Shown here: piece after piece, positions 24,658 through 58,952 of the stretch
How positions within the stretch are numbered: position 1 is the first letter of the stretch
Layout: the number at the start of each line of letters is the position of its first letter
Assembly (NCBI RefSeq): GCF_001427105.1
Contig: NZ_LMGI01000003.1
Location: 164,618 to 228,617 of the forward strand
DNA length: 64,000 nt
Direction: 5' to 3'
Source of the DNA: Sphingopyxis sp. Root154
GTDB taxonomy: Bacteria; Pseudomonadota; Alphaproteobacteria; Sphingomonadales; Sphingomonadaceae
The notes under the pieces: generated by a model
Databases searched by the model: none
Told to the model about the DNA's origin: nothing
Seen by the model: only the letters and a program-made list of their open reading frames with translations
Position numbers and translations under genes: made by a program

Positions 24658-25137
24658 CTAGTCGCCGCGCCCGCGCCCCTCGGTCGTCCGCGCCCATTCG
24701 GCGAGGTCGCCGTGCCGTTTGATCGTCTTGAGACACACGACGGTCTTCAGCCGCTGCACGCCGGGTAGTTTCGAGAGATTGTGGCGCAACAGCTCGTCGA
24801 GATGGTCGGCAGAGCGCGAGAAGATTTTGAGCAGATAGTCACTCTCGCCCGCGGTGGTGTGGCATTCGACGACCGCGGGATGCGCGAGCACCGCGGCCTC
24901 GAAATCGGAGTGCGCATCGAAGCGAATCTGGACCTCGACGAAGCTCTGCACCGCGAGGCCGATCGCGATCGGATCAATTCGCGCCGCATAGCCTTCGATC
25001 ACGCCGCTTTCCTCCAGGTTTTTCACTCGCGACCAACAGGGCGATTTGGAGAGGCCAACCTGCTCGCCGAGTTCGGCAAAAGACTGCCGGCCGTCGCGTT
25101 CGAGCGCGGCGACGATTTTCCAGTCGAGCTTGTCCAT
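24658..25137 (-). CDS. Lrp/AsnC-family regulator, probably of the kynurenine operon
   Basis: 159 residues. An N-terminal winged helix (SFAELGEQVGLSKSPCWSRV) is followed by the RAM ligand domain (ESDYLLKIFSRSADHLDELL). It is divergent from the eight-gene aromatic amino acid operon across 187 bases. In Pseudomonas an Lrp-type protein, KynR, controls the kyn genes in response to kynurenine, so this protein probably does the same here, with kynurenine or a hydroxylated derivative as ligand. AGGACGGAACGC precedes the ATG. Confidence 0.88.
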   Translation of the reverse strand: MDKLDWKIVAALERDGRQSFAELGEQVGLSKSPCWSRVKNLEESGVIEGYAARIDPIAIGLAVQSFVEVQIRFDAHSDFEAAVLAHPAVVECHTTAGESDYLLKIFSRSADHLDELLRHNLSKLPGVQRLKTVVCLKTIKRHGDLAEWARTTEGRGRGD

Positions 25138-25324: not shown

Positions 25325-26197
25325 ATGGCCGCGACACATATATTCGACGCACCGCCCGAAGGTGTCGCGGCCAATTGGACAATGCCGCAGAACTGGGCCG
25401 CCTTCACCGCCGGGCAGCACGAAACCTGGCGGACCTTGTTCGATCAGCAGTCGGCGGCGCTCGATGGCTATGCCTGCCGGTCGTTCCTCGATGGCCTCGA
25501 CATTCTTCGACAGCTGAAACCTGGCGTTCCCGATTTCGCCGAGCTTAACGCGCTGCTGAAGCCGGCGTCGGGGTGGGAAGTCGTCGCGGTGCCCGGCTGG
25601 ATTCCGAATCAGCCCTTCTTCGAGCATCTGGCGAACCGGCGCTTCCCTGCCGCCAATTTCGTCCGCCCGCCCGAGCAGATCGCCTACAGCGAAGAGCCCG
25701 ATATGTTTCACGACATTTTCGGCCATATCCCGATGCTCACCGATCCCGCTTTTTCGGACTTTCTGGTGGCTTATGGTCAGGCGGGACTGCGCGCCGAAAA
25801 GCTAGGGGCATCGGACTATCTCGGGCGGCTCTGGCTTTATACGGTCGAGTTCGGTCTTGTGGTCGAGGACGGCGAACTGCGCGCCTTTGGCGGCGGCCTG
25901 ATGTCGAGTTTCGCCGAGGCGTTGTCGGCGCTGACCTCGCCCGAACCACGTCGCATCTGGCTCGATATTGAGCGGGTGATGCGGACACGATATAATTTCG
26001 ACGAATTCCAGCAGACCTACTTCGTCGTCGCGGGGTTCGGGGAGTTGCTGCGCGCGACCGAGGAAACCGACTTCGCGGACGTCTATCGCAAGATCGCGGG
26101 CGATCCGGCGCTTGAGCCGGGAGATGCCTATCCGGGCGATTTGACCTATGAAGGGCGTCTGTCGGCCGCGCCGGCGAGCGGAGAGGCGTTCCTATGA
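25325..26197 (+). CDS. Pterin-dependent aromatic amino acid hydroxylase (phenylalanine 4-hydroxylase family; possible tryptophan 5-hydroxylase)
   Basis: 290 residues, the length of bacterial phenylalanine hydroxylases. Iron ligands are visible: His129 and His134 in DMFHDIFGHIP and Glu175 in YTVEFG. The position four before this Glu is Trp in phenylalanine and tyrosine hydroxylases and Phe in animal tryptophan hydroxylases; here it is Leu171. That opens the pocket and, with kynA-kynB-kynU directly downstream, suggests tryptophan rather than phenylalanine as substrate. No pterin dehydratase (phhB) is present in the window. ATG 25325 follows GGAGAGAG; the open frame to 25217 is ignored. ATGA overlap with kynA. 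Family certain, substrate inferred. Confidence 0.88.
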   Translation: MAATHIFDAPPEGVAANWTMPQNWAAFTAGQHETWRTLFDQQSAALDGYACRSFLDGLDILRQLKPGVPDFAELNALLKPASGWEVVAVPGWIPNQPFFEHLANRRFPAANFVRPPEQIAYSEEPDMFHDIFGHIPMLTDPAFSDFLVAYGQAGLRAEKLGASDYLGRLWLYTVEFGLVVEDGELRAFGGGLMSSFAEALSALTSPEPRRIWLDIERVMRTRYNFDEFQQTYFVVAGFGELLRATEETDFADVYRKIAGDPALEPGDAYPGDLTYEGRLSAAPASGEAFL

Positions 26198-27099
26198 TCA
26201 GGCAGACGAGCGATGGCGGCACCGATATCTTCGAGACCGAGATCGACGGTGAGACGATCCAGTGGGACAATGGCCTGACCTATGCGCGGCATTTGCAGAC
26301 GGCGCAGCTGCTCTCGGCACAGGTGCCGGTGTCGGACAAGCCCGACGAGATGCTGTTCATCATCATGCATCAGACGATGGAGCTGTGGATCAAGCTGGTG
26401 TTGCACGAGGCGCGCCTCGTCCACGACGCGATCAAGGCCGACGGGCTCGAGATCGCGGGCAAGGGGCTCGACCGGATCGCAACGATCCAGCGGCACATGA
26501 TCCACAGCTGGGAGGTGCTCGCGACGCTGACCCCGCATGATTTCCTGACCTTCCGCGGCTTCCTGCGCCGCGCGTCGGGGTTCCAGTCGCAGCAATATCG
26601 CGAGCTTGAATATCTGCTTGGAAACAAGCGCGAGGATATGATGATCGTTCACAAGGACGATCCGCAAGCGACTGAAAGGCTGCGCGCCGCGTTCGAGGCG
26701 CCGTCGCTCTACGACGAGCTGCTCCGACTGCTCGCGCGGCGCGGTTTCGATATCCCTGCCGATCATCTGGAACGCGACTGGACGAAGCCCTATGCGGCGT
26801 CGGAGACGGTCGAGGATGCCTGGCTGAAAATCTACACCGACGTCGACGCGCATTGGGACCTCTACACGCTGGCCGAGAAGATCACCGCGCTCGAATATTA
26901 TTTCCAGGAATGGCGCTTCAAGCACATGAAGACGGTTGCGCGCGTGATCGGGCACAAGCCCGGCACTGGCGGCTCGTCGGGGGTCAATTATCTGGTGAAG
27001 GCGCTGGACCTGAGCTTCTTTCCCGAACTCTGGTCGATGCGCACGCGGATGGCGGCCCCGCGCGAGGGCGGCGATTATGCCGAAGGGAAGAGCGCATGA
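26194..27099 (+). CDS. kynA: Tryptophan 2,3-dioxygenase
   Basis: 301 residues. The family blocks MHQTMELWIK (active-site His59), SGFQSQQYRELE, and the heme-binding region RFKHMKTVARVIG followed by GTGGSSG are all intact. The heme enzyme opens the indole ring of tryptophan to N-formylkynurenine in the cytoplasm. It is coupled by ATGA overlaps to the hydroxylase before and kynB after. If the upstream enzyme hydroxylates tryptophan, this one would have to accept 5-hydroxytryptophan; the sequence does not settle that. Confidence 0.95.
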   Translation: MIRQTSDGGTDIFETEIDGETIQWDNGLTYARHLQTAQLLSAQVPVSDKPDEMLFIIMHQTMELWIKLVLHEARLVHDAIKADGLEIAGKGLDRIATIQRHMIHSWEVLATLTPHDFLTFRGFLRRASGFQSQQYRELEYLLGNKREDMMIVHKDDPQATERLRAAFEAPSLYDELLRLLARRGFDIPADHLERDWTKPYAASETVEDAWLKIYTDVDAHWDLYTLAEKITALEYYFQEWRFKHMKTVARVIGHKPGTGGSSGVNYLVKALDLSFFPELWSMRTRMAAPREGGDYAEGKSA

Positions 27100-27725
27100 G
27101 CCGGATCTGGGACATTTCGCAGCCGCTCCACGCCGCGGTGCCGGTGTGGCCGGGCGAGCCGGCCTTCGCGCTCCACAACCATGCGGTGATCGGCGAAGGC
27201 TGCCCGGTCAATGTCGGCGGCATGTTCACGCCGCTGCATGCCGGGACGCATGGCGATGCGCCGCTGCATTATGCCAATGACGGCGCCTCGTCGGCCGACT
27301 GCGATCTCGATGCGTATATCGGATCGTGCGTACTACTCGACGTCCGTCACGCGCGCGGCCGCGTCGAGATCGCAGACATCGATTGGGATGCCATAGAAGG
27401 CGGCGAGCGCGTGCTGCTGCGCACCTATGAGCATTTCCCGCATGACCAATGGGACTCGGACTTCACTGCGATCGCAAGCGACGTGATCGCGCGGCTTGGG
27501 TCCATGGGCGTGCGGCTGATCGGCACCGATGCCGCGTCGCTCGATCCCGAACAGTCGAAGACGCTCGACGCGCATCAGGCGGTCAAGGCGGCGGATATGC
27601 GGATATTGGAAGGCCTCGTGCTCGATGACGTGCCGCCCGGCCGGTACGAACTTGTCGCGCTGCCGCTCCGTATCGTCGGCGCCGACGCCAGCCCGGTGCG
27701 CGCTATCCTGAGGGAAATCGCATGA
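27096..27725 (+). CDS. kynB: Kynurenine formamidase (cyclase-like)
   Basis: 209 residues. The metal-binding pattern H-x3-H-x-D-x3-H is visible as HAGTHGDAPLH (His48, His52, Asp54, His58), and the start WDISQPL is characteristic of bacterial KynB. It removes formate from N-formylkynurenine. ATG 27096 overlaps the kynA stop and the stop overlaps the kynU start, both as ATGA. Confidence 0.95.
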   Translation: MSRIWDISQPLHAAVPVWPGEPAFALHNHAVIGEGCPVNVGGMFTPLHAGTHGDAPLHYANDGASSADCDLDAYIGSCVLLDVRHARGRVEIADIDWDAIEGGERVLLRTYEHFPHDQWDSDFTAIASDVIARLGSMGVRLIGTDAASLDPEQSKTLDAHQAVKAADMRILEGLVLDDVPPGRYELVALPLRIVGADASPVRAILREIA

Positions 27726-28963
27726 CCGACACGATACTTGCCACCGATGTGTCGGCGCTTGATGCCGGCGATCCGCTGGCGCCTTTTCGCGATCGATTCC
27801 ATTTGCGCGAAGGGCTAATCTATCTCGACGGCAATTCGCTGGGTGCGCTGCCGAAGGCGACGGGTGACCGGCTCGCCGAGGTTGTGGGAAGCGAATGGGG
27901 CGAGGGGCTGATCACGTCATGGCTCGGTGCCGAATGGTCGACCGCGCCGCGGCGCGTCGGTGACAAGATCGGCCGACTGATCGGCGCTAACCCCGGCGAG
28001 ATTGTCGCGACCGATTCGACTTCGGTGAATATCTTCAAGGCGTTGACCGCCGCACTTTCGTTGCGGCGTGAACGGGCGGTGATCCTGTCCGAAGCGACGA
28101 ATTTCCCGACCGACGTCTATATGATGCAGGGCATCGAGGCCTTTTCGGGCGGACGCGTCAAGGCGGTCACGGTTGCGCCCGACGCGGTCATCGAGGCGCT
28201 GAACGACGATGTCGCGGTGCTGTTGCTGACGCAGGTTCACTATAAGTCGGGCCGCGTGCGCGACATGGCGGGAATCACGCAGCGCGCGCACGAGGTCGGC
28301 GCGCTCGTCGTCTGGGATCTGAGCCACAGCGCGGGCGCGATCCCTGTCGACCTCAACGGCGCGAACGCCGATTTCGCGATCGGTTGCGGATACAAGTTCC
28401 TCAATGGCGGCCCCGGCGCACCCGCCTATTTGTTCGCTGCGGCGCGGCATCATGCAGCGACGCCGGTGCTGTCGGGCTGGTTCGGGCACGCGCGGCCGTT
28501 CGCCTTCGAGGAGGATTACGACCCGGCCGCCGGGATCGAGCGCTTCCAGTGCGGCACACCGCCCGTGCTCGGCCTGTCGGCGCTCGAGGTGGGCGTCGAC
28601 CTCATGCTCGAAGCTGACATGGCCGAAATCCGGCGCAAGTCGCTCGCCCTCGGCGACCTTTTCATCGAGCAGATGCGGCCGCTGTGCGACACCTACGGCT
28701 TCGAACTGATCAGCACGCAAAGCCATGCTGAGCGCGGCAGCCAAGTCGCCTACGCGCACCCGCAGGGATACCAGATCGTGCAGGCGCTCAAGGAATATGA
28801 CGTCATCGCCGATTTCCGCGCGCCCGATATCTTGCGCTTCGGGCTGACGCCGCTTTACCTGCGCTATCGCGACATCGTCGAAACCATCGAGCGGCTCGAC
28901 AAGGTCTGCGCGACGCGCGCGTGGGACAAGCCGCAATATCATGAGCGGGCGGCGGTGACATGA
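27722..28963 (+). CDS. kynU: Kynureninase
   Basis: 413 residues, full length. The PLP lysine lies in GCGYKFLNGGPGAPAYL, and YLDGNSLGALP near the N-terminus is the family signature. It cleaves kynurenine to anthranilate and alanine; with a 5-hydroxylated substrate it would give 5-hydroxyanthranilate. The operon holds no anthranilate 1,2-dioxygenase or anthranilate-CoA ligase, which makes the fate of plain anthranilate unclear and supports a hydroxylated route. ATGA overlaps on both sides. Confidence 0.95.
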   Translation: MTDTILATDVSALDAGDPLAPFRDRFHLREGLIYLDGNSLGALPKATGDRLAEVVGSEWGEGLITSWLGAEWSTAPRRVGDKIGRLIGANPGEIVATDSTSVNIFKALTAALSLRRERAVILSEATNFPTDVYMMQGIEAFSGGRVKAVTVAPDAVIEALNDDVAVLLLTQVHYKSGRVRDMAGITQRAHEVGALVVWDLSHSAGAIPVDLNGANADFAIGCGYKFLNGGPGAPAYLFAAARHHAATPVLSGWFGHARPFAFEEDYDPAAGIERFQCGTPPVLGLSALEVGVDLMLEADMAEIRRKSLALGDLFIEQMRPLCDTYGFELISTQSHAERGSQVAYAHPQGYQIVQALKEYDVIADFRAPDILRFGLTPLYLRYRDIVETIERLDKVCATRAWDKPQYHERAAVT

Positions 28964-29973
28964 GCGACGTGTCGTTACCCTTCCTGCCGAAGTCGCGCGT
29001 CGCTGCGGTGCAGGCCGCGCCGGTCTTCCTCGACACCGCCCGCACGGTCGACAAGGCGTGCGCGCTGATCGCCGAGGCCGCCGGCAACGGCGCGCAGCTC
29101 GTCGCCTTCCCCGAAGTGTTCGTGTCCGCCTATCCCTATTGGAACTGGCTAATGACGCCGATCGAGGGTGCCGAATGGCACGAGCGCCTCTATCGTGCGT
29201 CGCTCCTGATCGACGGGCCCGAGGTCGCGGCGCTGTGCAACGCCGCCCGCGATCATGGCTGCACCGTCGTCATCGGCATCAACGAACGCGATCCGGTGAG
29301 CATCGGGACGCTTTATAACACCAACCTGATCATCGGCGCCGACGGTACACTGCTCGGGCGGCATCGCAAGCTGGTGCCGACGTGGGCCGAGAAGCTCACA
29401 TGGGCGGGCGGCGATGGCAGCTCGATCCGCGTCTACGACACGCCGGTCGGGCCGCTCGGCACGCTCGCGTGCGGCGAGAATACGAACACGCTCGCGCGCT
29501 TTGCGCTGCTGTCGCAGGGTGAGCTCGTCCACGTCGCCAATTATATTGCGCTGCCCGTCGCGCCCGCGTCGTACAATATGGCCGAGGCGATCAAGATCCG
29601 CGCGACCGCGCACAGCTTCGAGGGCAAGGTGTTCACGATCGTCGCCTGCTCGGCGGTGAGCCCCGAAATCATCGACGCAATGAGCGCCGACCGGCCGCAG
29701 AACCGCGAGCTGCTGTCGCGGCCGAACAGCGCCTTTTCGGGCGTCATCGACCCGCACGGCAATCTGGTGGGCGAGGCGCTGATCGACAATGAGGGCATCG
29801 TCTATGCCGAGATCGACCTTGGCGAGTGCATCCGGCCCAAGCTGATGCACGACATCATCGGCGGATATAACCGCTTCGACATCTTCAACCTGACGGTCGA
29901 CCGGACTCCCCGCGCGTCGGCCCTGTTTGTCGACGAGCCGCAGCCCGTCGATTCCGACGAGGAGATGCCATAA
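28960..29973 (+). CDS. Nitrilase-superfamily C-N hydrolase
   Basis: 337 residues with the Glu-Lys-Cys triad: Glu52 (FPEVF), Lys137 (HRKLVPT) and Cys171 (LACGENTN). Overall it resembles the nitrilase branch, though the Cys is followed by Gly where classical nitrilases have Trp. Members hydrolyse nitriles or amides. In this operon an amide is the plausible substrate: cleaving 5-hydroxyanthranilate beside its amino group would leave a carboxamide, and this enzyme could release the ammonia. Indole-3-acetonitrile hydrolysis is the main alternative. It overlaps kynU (ATGA) and shares one base with the next start (TAATG). Confidence 0.85.
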   Translation: MSDVSLPFLPKSRVAAVQAAPVFLDTARTVDKACALIAEAAGNGAQLVAFPEVFVSAYPYWNWLMTPIEGAEWHERLYRASLLIDGPEVAALCNAARDHGCTVVIGINERDPVSIGTLYNTNLIIGADGTLLGRHRKLVPTWAEKLTWAGGDGSSIRVYDTPVGPLGTLACGENTNTLARFALLSQGELVHVANYIALPVAPASYNMAEAIKIRATAHSFEGKVFTIVACSAVSPEIIDAMSADRPQNRELLSRPNSAFSGVIDPHGNLVGEALIDNEGIVYAEIDLGECIRPKLMHDIIGGYNRFDIFNLTVDRTPRASALFVDEPQPVDSDEEMP

Positions 29974-31112
29974 TGGCAGGCAATAGCACGATCATCGACC
30001 CGCGCGACGATGTGCTCGGCCGCGCGCGCGTCACCGACACGCCCGAGCTTGAAGCCTTTTATCAAGAGCTTGCGGCGCGCAATGCCGGCGCGTTCTGGAA
30101 ACGCGCCAATGCGATCGAGCCGTGGGAACCCGAGACGCGCTATCGCCCGACGCTCTGGCGCTATGCGGAGATGCGCGACATGTGCCTGCGCGCGCTCGAT
30201 CTGGTGAAGCCCGAGGAGGCGGGACGCCGCGTCGTGACGCTGCTCAACGACAGCGATGCGGGGCGCGAGAATGTTGCGGTCTGCGGCTGGCTGTTCAGCG
30301 GGATGCAGGCGATGCGCCCCGGCGAGATCACCCCCGCGCACCGCCACACCGCGTCGGCGCACCGCTTCATCATGGAGGGGAAGGGCGCCTATACCGTCGT
30401 CGACGGGCACCACATCACGCTTGGTGCCAATGATTATGTGCTGACCCCGAACGGCGCCTGGCACGATCATGGCGTCGTCGCCGGGGGCGAAGTCTCGATC
30501 TGGCAGGACGGGCTCGACATTCCGCTGATGAACAGCCTCGAGACCAATTTCTACGCGGTCTACGACCAACCCGCGCAAACCGCTGCCTTTCCTGCGGACG
30601 ACCTGCCGCTGAGCTATGGCGGCGCGGGGCTGCGGCCCGAGGGCGTGCCGGCGTGGGAGAAGCCCTATTCGCCGGTGATGGTCTATCGCTGGGAGCCTAC
30701 GCGCGACGCGCTGTGGAACCTCGCCAAAGTGTCCGACGGCACGCCGTTCGACGGGCATATGGTGCGTTATTCGAACCCGCTGACCGGCGGCTGGGCGCTC
30801 CAGACGATGGGCGCGCATATGCAGATGCTCAAACCCGGCTTCCGCGGCAAGGCGCACCGCCATACCGGCAATGTCGTCTATAATGTCGCGAGCGGGCGCG
30901 GCTATTCGATCATCGGCGGCGAGCGCTTCGACTGGGGCACGCACGACATTTTCTGTGTCCCCGCATGGATGTGGCACGAGCATGTCAATCTCGATCCTTC
31001 CGATGAGGCGTTTCTCTTCTCTTTCAACGATTTCCCCGTGATGGAGGCGCTCGGCGTCCGGATCGAGGAAGCCCTCCAGGAAAATGACGGACATCAAACA
31101 TGCGCTTCGTGA
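29973..31112 (+). CDS. Gentisate 1,2-dioxygenase-like bicupin ring-cleavage enzyme
   Basis: 379 residues, two cupin domains. The first carries the iron ligands in PAHRHTASAHRFIMEG (His123, His125) and AWHDHG (His164/166); the second has AHRHTGNVVYN. Gentisate dioxygenases cut the ring between the carboxyl-bearing and hydroxyl-bearing carbons; relatives act on 5-aminosalicylate or similar para-substituted compounds. Placed after kynureninase, 5-hydroxyanthranilate is the likely substrate, which has OH and NH2 para to each other. It overlaps the next gene by 13 bases. Family firm, substrate inferred. Confidence 0.85.
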   Translation: MAGNSTIIDPRDDVLGRARVTDTPELEAFYQELAARNAGAFWKRANAIEPWEPETRYRPTLWRYAEMRDMCLRALDLVKPEEAGRRVVTLLNDSDAGRENVAVCGWLFSGMQAMRPGEITPAHRHTASAHRFIMEGKGAYTVVDGHHITLGANDYVLTPNGAWHDHGVVAGGEVSIWQDGLDIPLMNSLETNFYAVYDQPAQTAAFPADDLPLSYGGAGLRPEGVPAWEKPYSPVMVYRWEPTRDALWNLAKVSDGTPFDGHMVRYSNPLTGGWALQTMGAHMQMLKPGFRGKAHRHTGNVVYNVASGRGYSIIGGERFDWGTHDIFCVPAWMWHEHVNLDPSDEAFLFSFNDFPVMEALGVRIEEALQENDGHQTCAS

Positions 31113-32008
31113 CATATCGCACGGTCGAGACCGAACCGCGGCTCGGCCTTCTCCACGACGGGCTCGTGATCGACGTCGAATATTTCGGCGATGCGATCGG
31201 CAATGACCTGCCCTCGACGATGCTCGATTTCATCGATCTTGGTCCGATCCCTCTGCGTTTCCTGCAGGAAGCCGTCGCAGCGGCGACCACCGCCGACCTG
31301 ATCGGCACGTCGCTGCCTCAGGGTAATGTCACCTTGCTCGCGCCGATCCCGCGGCCGCGCAAGAATATCTTCGGAATCGGTCTCAACTATACCGAGCATG
31401 TCGCTGAATCGGCGCGTTCGCTCGACACATCGAACGAGCTGCCGCAGCAGCCGGTGATCTTTTCGAAGCCGCCGACCGCGGTCGTCGCGTGGAATGATCC
31501 GATCCGTCACAATGCGAAGGTGACGCAGCAGCTCGACTGGGAAACCGAACTGGCGGTGATCATCGGCAGCACCGCGCGCCATGTCGCCGAGGGTGATGCG
31601 CTGCACCATGTGTTCGGCTATACCGTGATCAACGACGTGTCGGCGCGCGATTGCCGCCGCGCGGGGCAGTGGATCGTCTCGAAGGGGCAGGACAGCTTCG
31701 CCCCGATGGGGCCGTGCATCGTCACCGCCGACGAGATTGGCGATCCGCACAATCTCAATATCCTGACGCATGTGAACGGCGTCGAAAAGCAGAACAGCAA
31801 TACGCGCTTCATGCTGTTCAACGTACCCCAGCTGATCGCGGATATTTCGAGCGTGATGACGCTCGAACCCGGCGACATCATCGCGACCGGAACGCCCGCG
31901 GGGGTCGGCGCGGGCCGTGATCCGCAGGAGTTCATGTGGCCGGGCGACGTCGTCGAATGCACCGTCGAGGGCATCGGCACGCTGCGCAACCCGATTATTG
32001 CAGTCTGA
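31100..32008 (+). CDS. Fumarylacetoacetate hydrolase-family protein (acylpyruvate hydrolase)
   Basis: 302 residues. NIFGIGLNYTEH, the metal-site segment DWETELAVIIG and GDIIATGTPAGVG are the FAH-family landmarks. Such enzymes split the C-C bond of acylpyruvates. Next to a gentisate-type dioxygenase it would hydrolyse the ring-cleavage product directly. No glutathione-dependent maleylpyruvate isomerase is in the operon, and a maleate isomerase follows, so hydrolysis of the cis product to pyruvate plus maleate or maleamate is expected. Confidence 0.88.
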   Translation: MRFVTYRTVETEPRLGLLHDGLVIDVEYFGDAIGNDLPSTMLDFIDLGPIPLRFLQEAVAAATTADLIGTSLPQGNVTLLAPIPRPRKNIFGIGLNYTEHVAESARSLDTSNELPQQPVIFSKPPTAVVAWNDPIRHNAKVTQQLDWETELAVIIGSTARHVAEGDALHHVFGYTVINDVSARDCRRAGQWIVSKGQDSFAPMGPCIVTADEIGDPHNLNILTHVNGVEKQNSNTRFMLFNVPQLIADISSVMTLEPGDIIATGTPAGVGAGRDPQEFMWPGDVVECTVEGIGTLRNPIIAV

Positions 32009-32018
32009 GGCGTCCAGG

Positions 32019-32771
32019 ATGACACGCCCCATCCGCATCGGGCAAATCGTGCCCAGTTCGAACGTCACGATGGAGACCGAGATTCCCGCGCTGCTCCGCG
32101 CGCGCGAGGCGATCGCGTCCGAACGCTTTACCTTCCACTCGTCGCGGATGCGGATGAAGAAGGTGACGAAGGAGGAACTCGCGGCGATGGACGCCGATTC
32201 CGACCGCTGCGCGCTCGAACTGTCCGACGCCGCGGTCGATGTGCTCGGCTATGCCTGCCTCGTTGCGATCATGAGCATGGGTGAGGGCTATCACCGGGTG
32301 TCGGAGGCGCGGCTGCATCAGCGGACGGTCGAGAATGGCCGTGCCGCGCCCGTCGTCACCAGCGCCGGCGCGCTGATCGAGGGGCTGGCGGCGCTGAAGG
32401 CCAAGCGCATCGCGCTCGTCGCGCCTTATATGAAGCCGCTGACGCAGATGGTCGTTTCCTACATTCAGAATGAAGGTATCGAGGTAAGCGACTGGCTGGC
32501 GCTCGAAATTCCCGACAATCTGGAGGTCGCGGCGCAGGATCCTGCGAAGCTGCTCGAGCATTACAAAAGGCTCGACCTGACCGGAATCGACGCGTTCGTC
32601 CTTTCCGCCTGCGTCCAGATGCCCTCGCTGCCGTCGGTGCAGAAGATCGAGGATGCGATCGGCTTGCCCGTGGTGTCGGCGGCGATCTGCACGGCGCACC
32701 AGATGCTTACGCGGCTTGGGCTGTCGACCGAAGTTCCGGGCGCCGGGGCTTTGCTGTCCGGCCGCTATTGA
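32019..32771 (+). CDS. Maleate cis-trans isomerase
   Basis: 250 residues. The N-terminus RIGQIVPSSNVTMETEIPA and the two cysteines Cys80 (GYACLVAIM) and Cys198 (LSACVQMPSLP) match maleate isomerase of the Asp/Glu racemase superfamily (NicE in nicotinate breakdown), which turns maleate into fumarate without cofactor. Its presence says the operon ends in maleate. Start ATG 32019 lies ten bases after the hydrolase stop. The end overlaps the convergent symporter gene by seven bases, so little space is left for a terminator. Confidence 0.9.
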   Translation: MTRPIRIGQIVPSSNVTMETEIPALLRAREAIASERFTFHSSRMRMKKVTKEELAAMDADSDRCALELSDAAVDVLGYACLVAIMSMGEGYHRVSEARLHQRTVENGRAAPVVTSAGALIEGLAALKAKRIALVAPYMKPLTQMVVSYIQNEGIEVSDWLALEIPDNLEVAAQDPAKLLEHYKRLDLTGIDAFVLSACVQMPSLPSVQKIEDAIGLPVVSAAICTAHQMLTRLGLSTEVPGAGALLSGRY

Positions 32772-34021
32772 TCGGCGGTGGTGGGCGGTGCAATTGCCGC
32801 CGCCGCGGCGACATCGTGCGTCACATTGGCGACGGTGCGGACCATGTCGGGGATAACGTCGATCGCGAGCAGAATCGGCAAGAGTTCGATCGGTGCGCCA
32901 ATTGCGATCGCGGTTGGCGCGACCGACGCATAGAAGCTGATCTGCCCCGGCATCCCGAGAATCGCGAGTGACGACAGCACCGCGAGCGGCAAGGCAACGG
33001 CCAGCTGTAACGGCGAGACTTCGATCCCCGCCATCCACGCGAGCGCCAACGCCATCATCACAGTGTTCGACGGCGCGGTGATCTTGAAGGTCGCGACCGC
33101 CATCGGCAGGATGGCGGCGGCATTACGCTCCTCGATGCCGATGCGCTCGGCGCTCACCATCATCGCCGGCAGCGTGGCGATCGACGATTGGGTGCTCGCC
33201 GCGATGGCCTGCGCAGGAGCCATAGCGCGAGCAAAACGTCCGAGCGGGATGCCGCCGGAAAAGCGCGCGATAGTATAGCCGAGGACGATCAGCACCAGCG
33301 TCACCGATATCGAGATCGCGAGATATTGGGCGAGGATGGCGAGCACCGCTGTCCCGACGGTGGCGCCGATCGCCAGCGCGAGCGCGAAAATGCCGATCGG
33401 CGCGACGCGGAGCACCCAGCCGACGACGACGATCATCGCGTCGGCAAGCCCGCGCAGCGGCTGGAGCACCGCTTCCGCACGGTCGCGGTCGATCTTGCCA
33501 ACGGCAAGGCCGAGTATGAGCGCGAAGATGACGAGCGGCAGGACCGCGCCTTCGGCGGCCGACGCGACGACATTGGTCGGGATCATCGCGCGCATCGTTT
33601 CGGCTGCGCCGGGGACCGCCGGTGCAGGCGGGGCGGGGAAGAGGCTGCGCAGCGCGGCGATATCGGCGGGCGCAATCGTGACGGCGCCGAGCAGTGGCGG
33701 GACCATCAGGGCGCCGATGACCGCCGAGACGATCAACAGGCCGATCAGCACCAGCGGCAGGCGCCGCCCGAGGCGCGCGGCTTCGTGATGGTCGCCCATG
33801 CCAAGGCTGGAGACGCCGGTCGCGACGAGCGCGAAGATCAGCGGGACGATCGTCATGCGCAGCCCGTCGAGCCAGATACCGCCGACCAGTTGCGCGGCCT
33901 CGACCAGCGGCGACGATGCCGCGATGAAGGTGCCAATCGTGAAGCCGAGGATCAGCGCGACGATCATCCAGCCCGATCCGGGCATGCGCGTGGCCCAGGC
34001 CCGTGCGCGCGAAATTACCAT
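32765..34021 (-). CDS. Dicarboxylate/amino acid:cation symporter (DAACS family)
   Basis: 418 residues with about eight hydrophobic segments and hairpin motifs of the GltP/DctA family: STQSSIATLPAM (serine-rich reentrant loop) and APSNTVMMALAL (degenerate NMDGT motif). It imports acidic or neutral amino acids or C4-dicarboxylates with Na+ or H+. It is convergent with the catabolic operon, not part of it, and follows ssuB by 80 bases. Transport of tryptophan-pathway acids such as maleate or fumarate is possible but unproven. Start ATG 34021, with AGGGGG upstream; the longer frame into ssuB is spurious. Confidence 0.85.
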   Translation of the reverse strand: MVISRARAWATRMPGSGWMIVALILGFTIGTFIAASSPLVEAAQLVGGIWLDGLRMTIVPLIFALVATGVSSLGMGDHHEAARLGRRLPLVLIGLLIVSAVIGALMVPPLLGAVTIAPADIAALRSLFPAPPAPAVPGAAETMRAMIPTNVVASAAEGAVLPLVIFALILGLAVGKIDRDRAEAVLQPLRGLADAMIVVVGWVLRVAPIGIFALALAIGATVGTAVLAILAQYLAISISVTLVLIVLGYTIARFSGGIPLGRFARAMAPAQAIAASTQSSIATLPAMMVSAERIGIEERNAAAILPMAVATFKITAPSNTVMMALALAWMAGIEVSPLQLAVALPLAVLSSLAILGMPGQISFYASVAPTAIAIGAPIELLPILLAIDVIPDMVRTVANVTHDVAAAAAIAPPTTADQ

Positions 34022-34038
34022 GAGTCGAAATCCCCCTG

Positions 34039-34066
34039 ACCCCAGCATGCCGATGCATGCCGGGGT
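34039..34066 (-). other. Hairpin between ssuB and the symporter gene
   Basis: ACCCC-A-GCATGC and GCATGC-C-GGGGT pair around CGAT, an 11-bp stem with one mismatch. No T-run follows on the minus strand, so it is more likely an attenuator, processing site or mRNA stabiliser than a simple terminator. Confidence 0.5.
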
Positions 34067-34101
34067 GGTCAAAGCCTTTGCTGTGGTCCGATTGCGGGGC
34101 G

Positions 34102-53498: not shown

Positions 53499-53538
53499 CC
53501 GCCCTTGCATTTCGGCTCCGTCCCCGCCATAAGCGCCG

Positions 53539-53631
53539 CGGGAGTCGGGCGGACGCAGTCTTCGCCAACCCGGTCAGGTCCGGAAGGAAGCAGCCGCAAC
53601 GAATTCGCTGCGGGTCGTTCCGGCTCCCACC
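53539..53631 (+). ncRNA. ffs: Signal recognition particle RNA, small bacterial (4.5S) type
   Basis: The universal apical sequence GGTCAGGTCCGGAAGGAAGC at 53572-53591 is present, and the ends GGGAGTCGG and CCGGCTCCC pair to close a roughly 90-base hairpin. It binds Ffh and targets nascent membrane proteins. Ends are approximate. It lies just upstream of dnaX, an order also known from other bacteria. Confidence 0.93.
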
Positions 53632-53677
53632 CATTTCCCCCTTCGACAAGACCGCGGCGCGCCCCTAAGACGGGGCC

Positions 53678-58877: not shown

Positions 58878-58952
58878 GGGCGCGTAGCTCAGCGGTAGAG
58901 CACACCCTTCACACGGGTGGGGTCACAGGTTCAATCCCTGTCGCGCCCACCA
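58878..58952 (+). tRNA. tRNA-Val (CAC anticodon)
   Basis: 75 bases with an encoded CCA end. Acceptor arms GGGCGCG and CGCGCCC pair fully; D-arm AGCTCAGCGGTAGAGC, anticodon stem CACCC/GGGTG with loop TTCACAC (anticodon CAC), and T-loop GGTTCAATCC are all present. Confidence 0.96.

Follow-up and report, generated by a model that had tools for sequence, protein, structure and literature searches.

The closest described systems each share a part with the locus studied here, an operon of eight genes at positions 25325-32771 (+ strand) of a window of 64,000 nucleotides (nt) from Sphingopyxis sp. Root154 (contig NZ_LMGI01000003.1); the window is the whole stretch of DNA that was analysed. In the anthranilate branch of the bacterial kynurenine pathway the same KynA, KynB and KynU families are found, and the ring is likewise opened before deformylation and the cleavage of the side chain follow. 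In contrast, the operon has an additional pterin-dependent hydroxylase and an altered KynA pocket, and it is predicted to lead to 5-hydroxyanthranilate instead of anthranilate/catechol or 3-hydroxyanthranilate. A bicupin dioxygenase and an FAH hydrolase are shared with the gentisate pathway, but an amidase-like gene of the operon type is present in all 25 loci with KynA and KynU among the best 80 of the dioxygenase clade, this clade is a separate one and the predicted cleavage product is an amide. The nicotinate (nic) pathway ends with the maleamate amidase NicF and the maleate isomerase NicE. The steps from maleamate via maleate to fumarate would be common to both systems, and the isomerase of the operon is closest to 4fq7. 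NicF is a member of the isochorismatase family, whereas the amidase of the operon is of the nitrilase superfamily. With 2-aminobenzoyl-CoA monooxygenase/reductase and salicylyl-CoA 5-hydroxylase the 5-hydroxylation is shared, and members of these families lie beside the same module elsewhere. However, these routes are CoA-dependent and act after ring opening, and no CoA-dependent 5-hydroxylase was found in any of the 25 loci. For Nocardia opaca, a secondary anthranilate route via 5-hydroxyanthranilate and gentisate is mentioned in a passage of PMC4539516 (citing Cain 1968), which names no genes for it. 5-Hydroxyanthranilate is the common intermediate; it is degraded via gentisate there, whereas direct cleavage is predicted here.

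We propose that the operon most probably encodes a complete aerobic tryptophan pathway with hydroxylation as the first step, leading via 5-hydroxyanthranilate to fumarate. The following genes (lengths in amino acids, aa) are involved:

25325-26197, + strand: AAH, biopterin-dependent aromatic amino acid hydroxylase, predicted tryptophan 5-hydroxylase (290 aa; PF00351)
26194-27099, + strand: KynA, tryptophan 2,3-dioxygenase family, predicted substrate 5-hydroxytryptophan (301 aa; TIGR03036, below cut-off)
27096-27725, + strand: KynB, kynurenine formamidase (209 aa; TIGR03035)
27722-28963, + strand: KynU, kynureninase (413 aa; TIGR01814; closest solved structure 1qz9)
28960-29973, + strand: NIT, hydrolase of the nitrilase superfamily (CGEN motif), predicted to be an amidase for maleamate (or maleamoylpyruvate) (337 aa; CN_hydrolase)
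29973-31112, + strand: GDO, bicupin gentisate-dioxygenase-like protein, predicted 5-hydroxyanthranilate 1,2-dioxygenase (379 aa; closest solved structure 3bu7)
31100-32008, + strand: FAH-family hydrolase, predicted to convert (maleamoyl/maleyl)pyruvate to pyruvate and a C4 acid (302 aa; FAA_hydrolase)
32019-32771, + strand: MI, maleate cis-trans isomerase (250 aa; closest solved structure 4fq7)

In this pathway AAH would hydroxylate tryptophan at C5 to 5-hydroxytryptophan. KynA would open the indole ring, KynB would remove formate and KynU would cleave 5-hydroxykynurenine to alanine and 5-hydroxyanthranilate. GDO is predicted to cut the ring between the carboxyl- and the amino-bearing carbons, giving the amide maleamoylpyruvate. 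FAH and NIT, in either order, would split off pyruvate and ammonia, and the remaining maleate would be converted to fumarate by MI. The lower four enzymes may form a portable 5-hydroxyanthranilate module that is fed differently in other bacteria. The proposal builds on gene content, conservation, residue changes and linkage, from which all substrates and products are deduced. The same route had been suggested in a preliminary description of this DNA and is supported here: every step has a fitting gene, and the AAH residues and the linkage of NIT with the isomerase agree with it.

All eight open reading frames are collinear, uninterrupted and start with ATG; the junctions measure, in order, -4, -4, -4, -4, -1, -13 and +10 nt. 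Eight genes in one direction with a single gap of 10 nt were thus described correctly before, while the reported overlaps of 4 to 13 nt do not apply to NIT and GDO, which overlap by 1 nt. Families were assigned by searches with Pfam (5 of the 8 proteins; Biopterin_H, CN_hydrolase, cupin, FAA_hydrolase and Amdase), NCBIfam and solved structures. The genome (G000; 4.73 Mb, 5 contigs, 99.99% complete) belongs to a bacterium of soil and water. The dioxygenase-clade loci compared are the best 80 of at least 565 relatives (at least 594 stretches in the contig scan), and the identity thresholds for them were chosen after a first view of the neighbourhood data. Among the matches listed, the closest named dioxygenase loci are from Sphingopyxis, 96-97% identical in the dioxygenase. 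The search for the same gene order, proposed in the preliminary description, was successful: among 20 further loci in which AAH occurs together with kynurenine genes, 14 keep all eight genes in order on one strand. Hence, the grouping is not due to chance. Among the remaining loci (L and G numbers are our labels for loci and genomes), AAH is nearby but on the opposite strand in L058, L059, L060 and L090, the contig of L070 stops within GDO, and no MI match was found in L064.

AAH belongs to the Biopterin_H family (PF00351, 136.4 bits). It exceeds the cut-off of the phenylalanine 4-monooxygenase model TIGR01267 (280.6 against 264.75 bits) and reaches 102.8 bits with the tryptophan 5-hydroxylase model TIGR01270 (cut-off 705.5). 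H129, H134 and E175 are located at the positions that we take to be those of the iron ligands, with H, H and E in all 34 aligned rows. In the HMMER alignment to the phenylalanine hydroxylase of C. violaceum (CvPAH), W92 and L171 replace L101 and W180, so the pocket of the bacterial phenylalanine 4-hydroxylases (L101, W180) is not present. This pair is W/L, F/L or V/L in all 23 kynurenine-linked AAHs, i.e. the window, 20 loci (L047-L064, L070, L090), L036 and L184. For the other AAH homologues, most of them from a sample of 30 loci out of 146 matching genomes, L/W was found in 34 of 34 cases: 29 in one alignment, four in another, and the ordinary phenylalanine hydroxylase (PAH) of G000. The latter gene (G000:C1:1171624, on contig 1) is the second Biopterin_H gene of the genome and 55% identical to AAH; a pterin-4a-carbinolamine dehydratase is encoded as well. 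According to an excerpt of PMC7796270, saturation mutagenesis at the L101 and W180 sites increased tryptophan hydroxylation by CvPAH, and in a passage of PMC9509612 W179F variants of the Xanthomonas and Cupriavidus enzymes serve for 5-hydroxytryptophan. The altered pocket of AAH probably indicates a substrate other than phenylalanine; tryptophan is deduced as this substrate from the neighbouring genes. If this is true, natural small bacterial-type tryptophan 5-hydroxylases exist, which are sought for 5-hydroxytryptophan and serotonin production. Such hydroxylases are now engineered at the same two positions, which seem to have changed naturally here.

KynB and KynU exceed the cut-offs of their models (TIGR03035, 242.7 against 223.05 bits; TIGR01814, 290.5 against 246.4 bits), and KynA stays below that of TIGR03036 (356.8 against 390.7 bits). 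For KynA and KynU, a single match each was found in G000. In the window KynA, H, M, F and A replace Y27, S58, Y113 and S123 of the Xanthomonas tryptophan 2,3-dioxygenase (XcTDO), with the H55 and R117 positions retained. H27/M58/F113/A123 (Xanthomonas TDO numbering) is present in 20 of 20 loci with AAH and the module, and also in 4 of 4 gammaproteobacterial loci with a sulfatase-family gene and the module. The very distant KynA of L071 has H/L/F/A. Ordinary KynAs of the same order (L149-L169) combine Y27 with Y113 in 21 of 21 cases. A quick tree places the H-type KynAs except L071 on one branch (SH-aLRT 86) and, with L071 added, on one side of a branch with a support of 52. The H-type pocket therefore seems to be mostly of a single ancestry; only L071, on a very long branch, is a candidate for a second origin. 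An H/M/F/A KynA was also detected in L184, which has AAH and not the module, and in L188 (G066), with a sulfatase-family gene, KynU, a Na symporter and a CoA ligase; the module is not there either.

A different order of steps could be drawn from the same genes. KynA could form N-formylkynurenine from tryptophan and AAH could hydroxylate kynurenine at C5, with unchanged later steps. Kynurenine is an amino acid too, the altered AAH pocket suggests no more than a non-phenylalanine substrate, and the operon-type KynA is also found without the operon-type AAH. Nevertheless, this order is unlikely. The H27 KynA is common to the sulfatase-linked loci, in whose genomes no AAH match was found (metagenome-assembled genomes, MAGs, may be incomplete). 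Furthermore, L071 has a KynA that is very distant and yet carries H27, which fits a substrate hydroxylated before KynA.

KynU was also considered as a reporter of 5-hydroxy specificity and was rejected. Only the W64 position, which is retained here and has a role against 3-hydroxykynurenine in kynureninase, is informative; it says nothing on C5. In G000, no protein passed the cut-off for 3-hydroxyanthranilate 3,4-dioxygenase (best 23.2 of 145.95 bits) or anthranilate 1,2-dioxygenase (best 166.4 of 671.9 bits), and none did in the 14 control genomes, so both negative results are without a positive control. In L096, a TDO-family protein (554-1420; 37% identical) is located right before NIT-GDO-FAH. 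The His55 position is Thr in this protein, which may use another indole.

Gentisate-type enzymes cut between C1 and C2, and their substrate is thought to be chelated via the carboxylate and the adjacent hydroxyl, as stated in a section of PMC4019311. The same cut in a 2-amino substrate would turn C2 into an amide carbon. According to an excerpt of PMC10306065, 5-nitrosalicylate dioxygenase rejects 5-hydroxyanthranilate; therefore, activity towards this compound cannot be assumed for the whole superfamily. GDO of the operon does not reach the cut-off of the gentisate model TIGR02272 (295.2 of 442.1 bits) and is separated in the tree from four dioxygenases outside its clade. The closest solved relative is 3bu7 (534 bits). 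The 3BU7 protein is the product of the module on the Ruegeria pomeroyi megaplasmid, where a stretch of 101 residues (chain residues 24-124) is unchanged.

NIT (PF00795, CN_hydrolase, 139.6 bits) has the Glu-Lys-Glu-Cys set of the superfamily (E52, K137, E144, C171). With the Nit6803-type nitrilase model TIGR04048, 228 of 502.6 bits were obtained, and the C-W-E motif is absent. At the catalytic cysteine, 58 of the 59 homologous rows, among which two genomes are represented twice, have C-G-E-N in contrast to C-W-E of nitrilases, and the remaining row is ambiguous; 12 other nitrilase matches all have C-W-E. The maleylpyruvate hydrolase 6jvv is among the solved relatives of FAH (123 bits), not as the closest one. 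MI is nearest to the maleate cis-trans isomerase 4fq7 (338 bits, 248 residues, E 2e-100), and the end of the pathway was therefore placed at maleate to fumarate. The two cysteine-bearing motifs GYACLVA and SACVQMPS are present in both proteins; the motif cysteines of maleate isomerase are catalytic.

Within the best 80 loci, NIT with C-G-E-N was found in 54. Maleate isomerase is present in 43 of these 54 and in none of the 26 loci without NIT; for the 68 loci flanked on either side by 4 kb or more, the values are 42/50 and 0/18. Outside the clade, no NIT homologue was detected in the 12-20 kb around 16 gentisate-dioxygenase-like loci of the same order (34-41% identical). The operon GDO of L090, located between NIT and FAH, belongs to another clade, that of the contig-1 copy of G000 (87% identical). 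Thus, two dioxygenase lineages fill the same NIT-FAH slot, as expected if both cleave one compound.

This compound could also be gentisate, if 5-hydroxyanthranilate were deaminated first and an ordinary gentisate dioxygenase and the usual maleylpyruvate route followed. The route proposed for N. opaca in the passage of PMC4539516 is of this kind, and 3bu7 bears the name gentisate dioxygenase. We consider this variant improbable. No gene of the operon belongs to a known aryl-amine hydrolase family in Pfam or NCBIfam. The Glu-Lys-Glu-Cys set of NIT is one for nitrile/amide chemistry and suits an amide, not an aromatic amine. In addition, the gentisate cut-off is missed by GDO, and the tree splits it from the four dioxygenases outside the clade. 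The likeliest substrate of the module is 5-hydroxyanthranilate. In a further set of loci (L102, L104, L105, L106, L114-L116, L118, L039-L041), GDO and FAH are accompanied by a different nitrilase (C-W-E-N, 34-38% identical to NIT). A protein with relatives named flavin reductase in plasmid records is often present, and no maleate isomerase match was found in this set, which perhaps represents a different pathway end.

The 25 loci with KynA and KynU, all of them with NIT, comprise 20 with AAH, 5 with a sulfatase-family gene instead and none with neither. Homologous operons that routinely keep the dioxygenase without the hydroxylase had been named as an argument against the pathway. This argument applies in part: such loci do occur, as 5 of the 25, each with a sulfatase-family gene. 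Four of the five are from related gammaproteobacterial MAGs, which also have a neurotransmitter-type Na symporter; the sulfatase motif is CSPTR in L065. The fifth, the Rhodobacteraceae locus L071, has another sulfatase-family gene (CGPSR), which forms a single gene run with KynA and KynU of this locus. The search for AAH in the five genomes gave no match; the MAGs among them may be incomplete. Sulfatase/phosphatase-family genes also lie near the module in L127 (R. pomeroyi megaplasmid), L074, L076, L080 and L129. In R. pomeroyi the motif is CxPSR, and an aminotransferase and an aldehyde dehydrogenase are nearby too. For these modules, catabolism of serotonin or 5-hydroxyindole (esters) is possible.

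The operon might also combine two unrelated pathways, a phenylalanine hydroxylase with ordinary kynurenine genes leading to anthranilate, beside a module for the cleavage of gentisate or another ring. AAH is above the TIGR01267 cut-off, and 29 of the 54 NIT-bearing loci have the module without KynA and KynU. This explanation is highly improbable, as all 25 loci with KynA and KynU have NIT, each with AAH or a sulfatase-family gene, the AAH pocket residues differ from those of 34 other homologues, and the operon is without an anthranilate outlet.

The feeds of the module are wider than the tryptophan route. It occurs with CoA ligase, thioesterase and 'salicylyl-CoA 5-hydroxylase/oxidoreductase' in Vibrio, Grimontia, Flavobacterium and Cytophagaceae, and with indolepyruvate-oxidoreductase-like genes, thioesterase and MarR regulators in Ruegeria, Sagittula, Shinella and Caballeronia. 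Among the 54 NIT loci, the 5-hydroxylase is present in 9, the oxidoreductase in 13 and both in two; in several loci, no upstream gene of the kinds sought is present. The role of the module in the tryptophan route, as first described, is retained, but the module is not specific to this route. 2-Aminobenzoyl-CoA monooxygenase/reductase yields 5-hydroxyanthraniloyl-CoA under limiting NADH, as stated in an excerpt of PMC3534580; with a thioesterase, the CoA route could therefore end at 5-hydroxyanthranilate. The breakdown of indoleacetate via isatin to anthranilate is known from a passage of PMC9613470. We suggest that the oxidoreductase might convert isatinate-type keto acids from indoleacetate to (hydroxy)anthraniloyl-CoA. 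In G003, one contig carries ordinary-pocket KynABU, a CoA ligase and the 5-hydroxylase, and the module stands by itself on a second contig. This arrangement may represent late hydroxylation with an unchanged KynA.

A second NIT-GDO-FAH-MI module is located on contig 1 of G000 (L033, L231). Its neighbours are a CoA 5-hydroxylase, a thioesterase, indolepyruvate-oxidoreductase-like genes, a Rieske oxygenase, an isochorismatase, an SDR, an amine oxidase, an ALDH and an MFS gene, and the cluster looks like one for the degradation of indole compounds. The absence of anthranilate-CoA genes, expected in the preliminary description, was not found: G000 has two near-full-length homologues of the CoA 5-hydroxylase (55-56% identity), one of which adjoins the second module copy.

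Taken over all loci, we regard it as somewhat more probable than its opposite that 5-hydroxyanthranilate is a widespread, so far unrecognised hub in the catabolism of aromatic compounds by bacteria, served by one module with at least three upstream routes, and that 3BU7 of R. pomeroyi is a 5-hydroxyanthranilate dioxygenase in the cell. The first route would consist of a true bacterial tryptophan 5-hydroxylase and the kynurenine enzymes. In the second, 5-hydroxyindoles released by a sulfatase would be degraded by the kynurenine enzymes. The third would be the CoA-dependent 5-hydroxylation of anthranilate derived from indole compounds.

Several points weigh against the hydroxylate-first pathway. 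H/M/F/A KynAs were found in L185-L187, from three genomes without the module (G149, G127, G091), which have AAH of the ordinary type only and no dioxygenase match. The operon-type KynA pocket is therefore not proof of a 5-hydroxy substrate; as such it was rejected and retained as supporting only. A123 occurs in 1 of the 21 ordinary KynAs, human TDO has F113 and A123 too, and the TDOs known so far are described as using 5-hydroxytryptophan poorly. G061 (L184) has Lrp-AAH-KynA-KynB-KynU with operon-type residues and no dioxygenase match. The closest solved relatives of NIT are nitrilases, not amidases, and 3bu7 was deposited and is cited as gentisate 1,2-dioxygenase. None of the NCBIfam cut-offs is reached by the sulfatase-family proteins, which makes it a guess that they act on 5-hydroxyindole sulfate esters. 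The genome itself has a CoA-route cluster. Finally, many loci are close relatives, and their counts are therefore not independent.

In the open-licence literature of PubMed Central, no description of a hydroxylate-first tryptophan pathway was found among the matches listed, and none of six spellings for maleamoylpyruvate or 5-hydroxyanthranilate dioxygenase was present. A passage of PMC9509612 treats 5-hydroxyanthranilate as an engineered precursor. As far as the literature searched reaches, the operon would be a new variant of kynurenine-type catabolism, and the ring-cleavage and amidase activities would be new if confirmed. If the proposal is true, bacteria gain a hydroxylate-first tryptophan pathway, an amide-making ring cleavage and a new amidase class. 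Moreover, a group of 'gentisate dioxygenases', one of them with a crystal structure, would be re-assigned, and the handling of 5-hydroxyindole and anthranilate by many marine and soil bacterial clusters would be explained.

Two genes flank the operon:

24658-25137, - strand: Lrp/AsnC-family regulator (NCBIfam Lrp-like), divergent upstream of the operon, likely its regulator
32765-34096, - strand: SDF-family (dicarboxylate) symporter (PF00375), convergent downstream neighbour, of uncertain membership in the system

The regulator reaches 101 bits and is below its NCBIfam cut-off of 233. An Lrp homologue adjoins the AAH/Kyn genes in 19 of the 20 loci with both, L062 being the exception, and the symporter is kept beside the operon in 4 of the 20. 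Promoter-like and terminator-like sites of the operon were not clearly above the counts in shuffled sequences, and an Rfam scan gave no match inside it. Elsewhere in the window, a bacterial small signal recognition particle RNA (53537-53634) and a tRNA-Val gene (58878-58952) were detected.

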